64,000 bases of DNA from Geothrix fuzhouensis (lineage in GTDB: Bacteria; Acidobacteriota; Holophagae; Holophagales; Holophagaceae). Where the stretch lies: contig NZ_JANHMQ010000001.1 of assembly GCF_024609325.1 (NCBI RefSeq), positions 248,001 to 312,000 on the forward strand. The letters run 5' to 3'. Position 1 is the first letter of the stretch, and each line of letters starts with the position of its first letter. Below the pieces are notes generated by a model. That model ran no database searches. It was not told the DNA's origin and worked only from the letters and a program-made list of their open reading frames with translations. This document shows, piece after piece, positions 48,500-51,519 of the stretch. The position numbers were made by a program, and so were the translations under genes.

Positions 48500-48799
48500 A
48501 TGCTCACCTCGAAACAGCGCCAGTTTCTCAAGGCCCAGGCCCACAAGTTGAAGCCGGTCATGCACGTGGGCAAGGGGGGGGTGACTCCCGCCCAGGCCGT
48601 GGAACTTGATGTGATGGTGGATAGCCTCGAACTCGTGAAGATCAAGATCAACCAGAACAGCTTCGAGAGCGAGGATACGGCCACCGCCGCCCTCTGTTCC
48701 GCCGTACCCGGTCTCGAGCATGTCTGGACCATCGGCCACACGATGCTGTTCTTCCGGCCCAGCCGCACCCACGACACGCGGTTTCCCTTGCCCGGCTGA
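48500..48799 (+). CDS. yhbY: YhbY family RNA-binding protein
   Basis: 99 residues with the CRM-domain pattern: LTSKQRQFLKAQAHKLKPVM, HVGKGGVTPAQAVELDVMVD (with the GKGG loop), ELVKIKINQNS. YhbY binds pre-50S ribosomal subunits. Most relatives are about 95-100 residues, as here. It is followed by a signalling-protein gene 48 bp on. Confidence 0.93.
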   Translation: MLTSKQRQFLKAQAHKLKPVMHVGKGGVTPAQAVELDVMVDSLELVKIKINQNSFESEDTATAALCSAVPGLEHVWTIGHTMLFFRPSRTHDTRFPLPG

Positions 48800-48847
48800 T
48801 TCAAGCCCGGGGCGTTCCGTTCCGAGGAGTCAGGGAAAGGAGTTCCG

Positions 48848-50947
48848 ATGCCCTACCTGTCATGGATGGAGGGGGACCAGCCCTTCCGGCATGCCGTGGT
48901 GGAGGAGCCCTGCCTGCTGGGCCGTGACCCCGTGGCCTGCGCCGTGGCGCAACCGGCCCTTGGTACCGTGTCGCCCATCCACGCCGCCCTGTCCCGAAGC
49001 GGGGGCCTCTGGCGGGTGAAAGTTCTGGAATCGGCCGACGGCTCCGCTTTGAACGGGGTTCCCCTGCACCCTTCCCAGGGGCACCCCCTGCAGGATGGGG
49101 ACGAGCTGGTGTTGGGCACCTGGCGTTTGACCTTCACAGAGGGATTCCCGGGGCTCGATGGCGCCACCTTCGTGGAACGGGTGGGGGACCTTTTTGACGA
49201 GATGCAGGCCCACCCCGGCCAGACCTTTCTCCCGGAACTGAAACAGCTCTACAGCGCCACGGAAAAGCTGCTGGGGGAAGCGGATTCGGACGCCCTGGAA
49301 AGAACCCTCCTGGAGGAGTCCCTGCGCTTGATGGCCGGGGATCGCGGCTTCTTTGTCGTGCGATTGAAGCAGGGCGGCTGGCGCACCACCCATCGGCTGG
49401 GAGCAGCCGGGAAGGAGTCCGGACCATCGCCAGCCGTGCTCGATTACGCCACCCGGGAACATACGGCCATCCTCTCCAACCAGCCTCAGGCGGATCCCCG
49501 ATTCGAGGCTGCAGGCCACCCCGAGCAGAGGCGCGGCCCGCTGCTGTGCGCTCCCCTGGCCGAGGAGGGTGGCCTGGTGGGCGCCCTGTATCTAGACCGC
49601 GGTGCGGAGGACCGGCCGTTCAGCCGGCTTGACCTGGCGATGCTCCAGGCCTACGTGCGCCGGGGTTCCCTGGTGCTCCGCCAGGCTCGGCTCCAGCGCC
49701 ACGCCCTCGGTCAGGCGGAACAGCAGGGTGAGCTTCTGCGCCTGCGGAACGAGTTGCAGCGCGACACGGAACGCCGCGGCGAGCGACTCGCGGCCATGGC
49801 CGCGTCCCTTCGCCGCATCCAGGGTTGGGTCCAGGAACTGCCCGAGGCGGCCGGTGCGGCCATCCGGTTCCAGCTGGAGCACCTGTCCACCCTTCTCGAA
49901 GAAGGACAGCGCGGAGCCTGCCTCGATGCCGCGCCGGTAGCGGGGCATCCCCTTTTAGTGGCAGCCTTGCAGGCGGACCTGGCCAAACGCTGGGACGCAC
50001 TCTTGGCCCTCCGTCACGCCAAATTGCGGTTGCCCGCCCCTCCCCAGGGAGCCATCTGGTGCCGCGGTGGCCCGCTCCAGCAGGCCCTGGATGGGCTTGT
50101 CGAGCCCGTGATCATGCAGCTGCCCCAGGACTCGGAGGCGTCCCTCCGCTGGGATCACGAGCGTGGGCTCCAGGTACTCCGCCTTGGCCTTCCCGCGGGG
50201 CTGCGAGGCCCTGCCCCAGATGACTGGACCCAGCGGACCTTGCAGGAGGCCGGGGTCCGGTGGCGCTGGGCGGATCAGACCCTGGACGTGTTCCTGCCTG
50301 AAGGGCCGGAAGCCATGCCTGAAGAGCCCGCGCGACCCTTGCTGGGGCTGGTGAGCGAGGACCTGGATCTGCTGGGGCTCTTCCAGACAGTGGCCGAGGC
50401 GGGGGACCTGTTGCTCAATCGCCTCGAACTCGTGCCCCCGCCCCCGCCTCTGCCCAAGTACCGGTTCTTGGTGATTGATGCGAAGGAGGCCAGGGATCCG
50501 CAAGGCACCATCCGGGCCTACCGGCACCATCCCTCCTTCGCCACCACCCCCATCCTGGTGGTCCGATGCACGGAGGACGACACCCCGCAGCTCATCGAGG
50601 CTGGGGCCACGGACTGGCTGGCCGAGGGGTTCCGTTGGGAGGCGCTGTACCATCGCCTCCGCGTGCTGCGCGGCCACACGGAACTTCGGCAGCGGGCCCT
50701 GGCGGCCGAGCGCCTGGAATCTTTCCGGCAGATGGCCGGAACCCTCAAACACGAAATCAACAACCCTCTGGCGGTCATCTCCATGCAGGTGGAGATGCTG
50801 CAGCGAAAGTATCCGGAGGAGGCCAAATTGGCCAAGATCGGGGAGATGGTCGATCGCATCCAGACCCTGGTGCAAGTCCTGCAGAAGATCCGCGAGACCC
50901 CCACGGAAGGCTACGCGGATGGGTCGAGCATTCTGCGGCTGGGGTAA
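48848..50947 (+). CDS. FHA-GAF protein with rearranged histidine-kinase parts
   Basis: 699 residues, no membrane helix. FHA-like domain at 20-97 (LLGRDP, SPIHAALSR, ALNGVPL); GAF-like domain at about 145-280; charged coiled coil at 283-330; a degenerate HATPase-like region at about 365-485 (PLQQALDGLVEP, without the Asn of a normal N-box); a receiver-like domain at about 495-610 (YRFLVIDAKEARD, TPILVVRCTEDD, AGATDWLAEGFRW); then an H-box at 635 (GTLKHEINNPLAVI) with its second helix ending the protein. The usual order is H-box then ATPase; here the ATPase part comes first and is degraded. It may act as a scaffold or phospho-relay. Single gene with AAAGGAG about 5 bases before the start. Confidence 0.78.
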   Translation: MPYLSWMEGDQPFRHAVVEEPCLLGRDPVACAVAQPALGTVSPIHAALSRSGGLWRVKVLESADGSALNGVPLHPSQGHPLQDGDELVLGTWRLTFTEGFPGLDGATFVERVGDLFDEMQAHPGQTFLPELKQLYSATEKLLGEADSDALERTLLEESLRLMAGDRGFFVVRLKQGGWRTTHRLGAAGKESGPSPAVLDYATREHTAILSNQPQADPRFEAAGHPEQRRGPLLCAPLAEEGGLVGALYLDRGAEDRPFSRLDLAMLQAYVRRGSLVLRQARLQRHALGQAEQQGELLRLRNELQRDTERRGERLAAMAASLRRIQGWVQELPEAAGAAIRFQLEHLSTLLEEGQRGACLDAAPVAGHPLLVAALQADLAKRWDALLALRHAKLRLPAPPQGAIWCRGGPLQQALDGLVEPVIMQLPQDSEASLRWDHERGLQVLRLGLPAGLRGPAPDDWTQRTLQEAGVRWRWADQTLDVFLPEGPEAMPEEPARPLLGLVSEDLDLLGLFQTVAEAGDLLLNRLELVPPPPPLPKYRFLVIDAKEARDPQGTIRAYRHHPSFATTPILVVRCTEDDTPQLIEAGATDWLAEGFRWEALYHRLRVLRGHTELRQRALAAERLESFRQMAGTLKHEINNPLAVISMQVEMLQRKYPEEAKLAKIGEMVDRIQTLVQVLQKIRETPTEGYADGSSILRLG

Positions 50948-50955
50948 GGGGACAG

Positions 50956-51519
50956 CTACTCCCGGTCCCGATCAATCAGCCACCTGATGCCGCGCTCGCT
51001 CAGCAAGGCCTGGACTGGCCAATCGTGGGGCTCGATGGGGACAGGCAGGTGCATCTGGGCTTCGAAGCCCACGCCTACGGTGAGGATCTCTTCCGGCAGC
51101 TTCGCCAGGAGGGCGTCGTAGAAGCCGCGACCGTAGCCCATGCGGTAGCCCGCCTCGTCGAAGGCGAGACCAGGCACCAGCAGCAGTTGCACGGGCGGGA
51201 GGAAGTGCTGGGCCAGAGCTGGTTCCAGGAGGCCCCAGTGGCCCTTCTCCAGAGGTTCCGAGCCCCAGACGAGTCGGGGGGGCTGGGTGGAGGCCACGCG
51301 TGGAAAAAACCAGAGCCAGTCCGGGTGGGCCGTGACCGCCGGGCGCAAATCGACCTCCGAGCCGAAGGGCCAGAAGGCGCCGATGCGCCGGAAGTGCCGG
51401 TTGCGGCAGAGGTCGCCGAGATGGGTGGCGATGGCGGCAGACCAGGCCGCACGGGAATCCGTGGGCAGAGTGTCCCGGCGAGCTTTGAGATGGGTGCGGT
51501 ATTCGGCCTTGGTCTCCAC
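50956..51519 (-). CDS. 5-formyltetrahydrofolate cyclo-ligase
   Basis: 187 residues. Family marks: KAEYRTHLKARRDTL with the first Arg/Lys residues, RRIGAFWPFGSEVDLRP, PVQLLLVPGLAFDEAGYRMGYGRGFYDALL (split across strands), with the ATP-site GYGRGFYD. The enzyme turns 5-formyl-THF to methenyl-THF using ATP. Convergent with the signalling-protein gene 8 bp away. It connects loosely with ftcD, which also makes one-carbon folate forms. Confidence 0.92.
   Translation of the reverse strand: METKAEYRTHLKARRDTLPTDSRAAWSAAIATHLGDLCRNRHFRRIGAFWPFGSEVDLRPAVTAHPDWLWFFPRVASTQPPRLVWGSEPLEKGHWGLLEPALAQHFLPPVQLLLVPGLAFDEAGYRMGYGRGFYDALLAKLPEEILTVGVGFEAQMHLPVPIEPHDWPVQALLSERGIRWLIDRDRE

Follow-up and report, generated by a model that had tools for sequence, protein, structure and literature searches.

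ChpT and Spo0B carry a DHp hairpin whose histidine shuttles phosphate, and neither autophosphorylates (PMC3433190). In Rhodobacter sphaeroides the phospho-acceptor histidine and the ATPase of the CheA3/CheA4 pair reside on separate proteins (PMC3591291), and RetS of Pseudomonas combines an intact H-box bearing a phosphatase-type motif with a dead ATPase and a receiver (PMC5992135). Pseudo-receivers have been defined as receivers that lack at least one of the conserved DD, D, T and K residues (Bourret et al. 2025, PMC12632262). A literature search for proteins combining FHA, GAF and histidine kinase domains in Acidobacteria found nothing.

The protein described here has 699 residues and is encoded in a 64-kb stretch of Geothrix DNA, referred to below as the window (Table 1). 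Like ChpT and Spo0B, it appears to possess a DHp hairpin with a candidate shuttle histidine and to be without the kinase part. ChpT has a Bergerat-like domain after its DHp, whereas the degenerate CA-like domain typical of Spo0B and ChpT is absent from the Geothrix protein, which has only a tail of 16-18 residues at this position; unlike in either protein, FHA and GAF domains and a dead hybrid-kinase core precede the DHp. The intact H-box with a phosphatase-type motif, the dead ATPase and the receiver are shared with RetS. However, RetS is a membrane sensor with the ATPase after its H-box, while in the Geothrix protein the dead ATPase lies before the second DHp and is paired with a dead first DHp. 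As in CheA3/CheA4, the candidate phospho-acceptor histidine is carried apart from an ATPase, but the P1 domain of CheA is an HPt domain and the Geothrix domain is a HisKA-type DHp.

Table 1. Features of the 699-residue protein and its locus, in positions of the window
Feature	Residues	Position	Strand	Evidence or remark
yhbY (presumed), CRS1-YhbY RNA-binding protein		48500..48799	+	48 bases upstream of the 699-residue gene
Ribosome-binding site AAAGGAG		48836..48842	+	sequence; ATG 5 bases on
Whole gene: FHA - GAF - psiDHp - psiHATPase - psiREC - live DHp - tail	699 aa	48848..50947	+	
FHA domain	23-90	48914..49117	+	Pfam E 3.4e-8
GAF domain	145-270	49280..49657	+	Pfam E 3.5e-7
Pseudo-DHp, helical hairpin without His	about 291-360	49718..49927	+	
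Pseudo-HATPase	365-487	49940..50308	+	hhalign 85.8%, score 41.7 vs shuffle maximum 15.6
Pseudo-receiver	495-610	50330..50677	+	hhalign 91.7%, score 42.0 vs shuffles <= 14.6
Second, intact DHp/HisKA hairpin	611-683	50678..50896	+	Pfam HisKA E 1e-7; hhalign 99%
Predicted phospho-acceptor in H-E-I-N-N (ExxN at +1/+4)	His635	50750..50752	+	
Conserved C-terminal tail, Y689-x-x-G692-x-x-I695-L-x-L	684-699 (about 16-18 residues)	50897..50944	+	
5-formyltetrahydrofolate cyclo-ligase gene (presumed), convergent		50956..51519	-	3' end 8 bases past the stop of the 699-residue gene

The terminal DHp hairpin and its tail

H635 lies within LKHEINNPLAVI and is invariant in all 46 orthologues, as are E636 and N639 and the tail residues Y689, G692 and I695. 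HATPase_c gave no match past residue 683, the protein stops at residue 699, and there is no HATPase_c match in the 64-kb window. Throughout the genome, 30 of 31 HisKA matches have HATPase_c immediately behind them, the 699-residue protein being the sole exception. The first-pass annotation had recognized a good terminal H-box around H635 with no ATPase after it, and the Pfam HisKA match and the invariance of the histidine bear this out. It had also taken the H-box for the very last part of the protein, which has to be amended, as the conserved tail follows the hairpin.

The family of Geothrix includes soil and sediment bacteria. At E <= 1e-20, 63 of the 77 family genomes contain a match, in 8 of 11 genera; those relatives that carry a name are either species of Geothrix or MAGs assigned to Holophagaceae (Acidobacteriota). 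We aligned 42 full-length orthologues from 7 genera, 28 from the genus itself and 14 from others; they measure 696-708 residues and share a common C-terminal end. An ATPase behind the H-box, which would have spoken against the original reading, was sought and is present in none of the orthologues. The dead upstream ATPase and the lack of one behind the H-box could raise the suspicion of a kinase that is decaying or was cut short at its 3' end, or of a faulty assembly. The common end of the orthologues refutes this, frameshift included, and so do the open frames free of internal stops and the purifying selection in every part. In addition, the 3' end of a conserved gene lies 8 bases after the stop; because this convergent cyclo-ligase gene is so close, the missing ATPase has no space there. 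We consider an explanation of this kind hardly credible. One MAG has the gene broken into two overlapping frames (L035 / L087), through sequencing error or a real break. The very divergent orthologue L065 (G077, 40%) has lost the FHA contact residues and retains the DHp and tail.

The best-conserved parts of the protein are the terminal hairpin (611-683) and the tail. Pooled pN/pS is lowest for the DHp (0.06), followed by the tail and the pseudo-receiver (0.10 each), GAF (0.14), and FHA, pseudo-DHp and pseudo-ATPase (0.25-0.27, with the latter two at 0.26-0.27). These values indicate that the degenerate parts remain selected as protein, albeit less strongly. DHp domains generally dimerise, and with the ATPase absent and both GAF and FHA being binding domains, the hairpin might serve solely as the dimerisation stalk of a sensor scaffold that performs no phosphochemistry. 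Such a stalk would have no need to keep H-E-x-x-N-P, yet the residues of H-box chemistry do not vary and purifying selection is strongest on them, and we regard this possibility as quite improbable.

The middle of the protein and its loss in short forms

Neither HATPase_c nor Response_reg of Pfam matched the 699-residue protein, and a single-sequence HMMER search with a home-made ATPase profile left the pseudo-ATPase undetected (E 0.08); only profile-profile comparison found it. Residues of about 309-460 are collinear with the DHp and HATPase of a comparison profile built from 25 ordinary kinases. The hhalign probability of this match is 92.6% and its score 51.7, while the reversed control scored 15.7 and ten column shuffles scored 17.9 or less. 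Taken alone, the pseudo-DHp gives a weak signal (hhalign score 17.4 vs a shuffle maximum of 15.2); in the predicted model its region forms helices at 260-328 and 333-354. The pseudo-HATPase lacks the N-box Asn, the G1 Asp-x-Gly and the ATP lid, and a conserved glutamate, E419, occupies the N-box Asn position, supporting the earlier judgement that this stretch is degraded. AlphaFold models segment 365-487 at a pLDDT of about 90 with the order beta-alpha-beta-beta-alpha-beta-beta-alpha-beta-beta. By our reading of this secondary structure, the order would be that of a Bergerat domain minus its ATP lid. The proposed ATPase fold is based on profile-profile comparison together with predicted topology.

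The hhalign alignment of the receiver spans residues 536-607, and matches to receivers are otherwise weak (best E 9.8e-4). The acidic pair at 504/505 is kept and D544 stands at the phospho-acceptor position with the correct spacing, invariant in 42 of 42 orthologues. The Thr site is R573 and the Lys site E593. The earlier impression that the receiver has no normal phospho-Asp is wrong; the residues that are missing are the Thr and the Lys. With T and K lost, region 495-610 counts as a pseudo-receiver in the sense of Bourret et al. 2025 (PMC12632262), but it differs from aspartate-less pseudo-receivers in that the acidic pair and the phospho-Asp remain. A conserved poly-Pro stretch, PPPPPLP, replaces receiver helix 2 (window 50420-50460, about residues 527-535); a phmmer match to a SETD2 fragment at this stretch is at chance level.

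By profile comparison, a hybrid kinase that has decayed makes up the middle ~320 residues, as psiDHp-psiATPase-psiREC in normal order: collinear DHp, HATPase and REC are present though degenerate, and the N-box Asn, G1 Asp and ATP lid are absent. The first-pass annotation had described histidine-kinase parts in a new order, with a coiled coil at 291-360. Since this supposed coiled coil resembles the hairpin of a decayed DHp and goes together with the ATPase-like stretch, that stretch is not out of order; the DHp-ATPase pair and the receiver follow the usual hybrid order and stand before a second DHp. We accordingly do not favour the idea of an ATPase moved ahead of the H-box that it serves, as in the alignment the stretch pairs with a dead DHp of its own, just before it.

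Four Geothrix genomes, including those of G. campi and G. oryzisoli, encode short forms of 376-385 residues in which FHA-GAF is fused directly to the DHp and tail. In the tree these short forms fall into one subclade together with the 699-residue protein (support moderate, 67-90), and all deep genera have the long form, a tree compatible with a single loss of the middle. That four genomes lack the whole middle and keep FHA-GAF-DHp-tail shows the middle to be dispensable. As the receiver is absent from the short forms, transfer from the protein's own D544 cannot be general.

Input domains and neighbouring genes

FHA, GAF and HisKA are the Pfam domains above cut-off, the last at residues 627-676. 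Most orthologues carry the FHA motif SRxH...NGT. In the 699-residue protein this reads SPIH...DGS, with G25, R26, S42 and H45 retained, R43 replaced by P and N64 by D. The motif is eroded further in the short forms: within their subclade SR has drifted to SP or AP and NGT to DGS, SGT or GGT, with NGT intact in two members (L003 and L006). With these replacements, the proposed binding of phospho-Thr by the FHA domain is doubtful in the lineage of the 699-residue protein; in most other orthologues the contact residues are intact. Structure searches with the full model returned GAF structures with Z up to 18.6, aligned to model residues of about 102-309; in Foldseek/VIA, where one domain filled the list, the matches were chiefly GAF and phytochrome-type.

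The gene lies behind one that we take from its sequence to be yhbY, and the two are probably on the same transcript. Same-strand yhbY is immediately upstream in all orthologue loci examined, across genera, so that a gene for a ribosome-associated protein constantly adjoins this FHA-GAF-DHp signalling gene throughout the family. The convergent gene downstream is presumably that for 5-formyltetrahydrofolate cyclo-ligase, likewise named from sequence. In one Holophagaceae MAG, a gene for an FHA-GAF protein whose C-terminus is PP2C/SpoIIE-like follows uvrB and immediately precedes the pair of yhbY and the orthologue (L085 3877-5524; L052 1502-3149). The FHA-GAF paralogues that we read are mostly phosphatases or cyclases rather than candidate partner kinases; no partner kinase or regulator gene adjoins the Geothrix locus.

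Proposed phosphotransfer in trans and related Acidobacteriota proteins

Having no ATPase of its own, H635 would have to be served in trans or used otherwise, which supports the earlier suggestion of a phospho-acceptor that needs another protein. Our best explanation, to which we give an even chance, is a sensor-regulated, ATPase-less DHp dimer phosphorylated in trans. We infer the dimer, the phosphorylation of H635, the partner, the direction of transfer and the role of the tail. The protein would be a cytoplasmic sensor with the ATPase-less DHp dimer as its working end, to which GAF input, and FHA input where the binding residues survive, would be relayed through a long helix. H635 may obtain its phosphoryl group in trans from a second kinase's ATPase domain, as in CheA3/CheA4, or alternatively from a phospho-receiver, as in Spo0B or ChpT, and may exchange it with a response regulator, giving or taking it. 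The middle 320 residues would be a structural or regulatory spacer at most.

E636-x-x-N639 is possibly also a phosphatase motif. A modulator resembling RetS would use its DHp to pair with or dock on another kinase or a receiver, which it would inhibit or dephosphorylate through H-E-x-x-N; here the histidine would be catalytic and no relay station. RetS itself acts on GacS through HExxT, and its HisKA is accompanied by a degenerate HATPase (PMC5992135). E636 and N639 are invariant, and related ATPase-less genes frequently adjoin a complete kinase (8 of 19 examined ATPase-less loci, with kinases from four families), but the Geothrix locus has no adjacent kinase, and relatives with A or N in place of the Glu after the His keep the His itself unchanged, which fits phosphotransfer better. 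In HisKA domains the histidine is not essential for phosphatase activity and cannot be bypassed in phosphotransfer (PMC12632262), so its strict retention favours phosphotransfer over pure phosphatase action. That it is kept even in relatives without the neighbouring Glu favours phosphotransfer over either a phosphatase or a stalk, short of proof. We therefore find a modulator of the RetS kind rather unlikely, and retain phosphotransfer in trans as the preferred reading.

Profiles of the DHp and tail detected sporadic ATPase-less proteins elsewhere in Acidobacteriota, of REC-DHp (about 230-290 residues) and (pseudo)REC-GAF-DHp type (about 390-440 residues), which end shortly after Y-x(4,6)-[ILMV]-[LVIF]-x-[LIFV]. 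These uncharacterised proteins (e.g. L142, L144, L182) share the C-terminal ATPase-less DHp and tail with the Geothrix protein, but mostly have a normal REC, are shorter (about 230-440 residues) and lack FHA and the dead kinase core. Their recurrence in the phylum with this tail pattern, and the complete kinase beside 8 of 19 loci, also count in favour of phosphotransfer in trans. Tail-bearing proteins match the whole profile at E of about 1e-17 or better, and complete kinases at 3e-16 or worse with alignments ending before the tail; apart from a few weaker tail-bearing matches the two are clearly separated, which is partly training bias, although several members (L180-L183) are outside the profile. 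The tail occurs at 66 of 68 ATPase-less DHp ends vs 1 of 38 complete kinases, a biased sample; because most ATPase-less members are orthologues or came from the tail-containing profile, the count shows only that complete kinases lack the tail. Several Geothrix genomes (L038 924-1716, L041, L187, L188) encode a separate REC-DHp-tail protein of 237-268 residues with the H-box AHALAQPL or AHELAQPL, adjoining ispG in L038 and L041. The same profile found none in the genome of the 699-residue protein.

In one genome of the same taxonomic class (L186), a gene pair with an ATGA overlap encodes PAS-GAF-DHp-ATPase and REC-DHp-tail, PAS being our own reading of the sequence. The domain order of this pair is the linear order of the Geothrix single chain, a likeness that may or may not reflect common descent. 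We put forward, tentatively, that tail-type ATPase-less DHp domains may form a distinct, undescribed Acidobacteriota class of phosphotransfer outputs with REC, REC-GAF, PAS-like or FHA-GAF inputs, a partner kinase in trans and a docking tail, in which the Geothrix protein would unite such a kinase/REC-DHp pair in one chain, with the kinase half dead, and gone in some lineages.

The Geothrix protein is a variant within the known pseudo-kinases and phosphorelay DHp domains, and becomes more interesting if the tail-bearing group is a real class. In it, evolution has tested which parts a signalling kinase cannot do without: the ATPase-receiver core was killed and then removed, with the phospho-acceptor module left nearly unchanged. 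The conserved tail gives the search for partners a definite starting point. Annotation usually labels ATPase-less DHp proteins as kinases or response regulators; if phosphate is supplied in trans, these proteins would act as overlooked phosphorelay nodes or kinase modulators.
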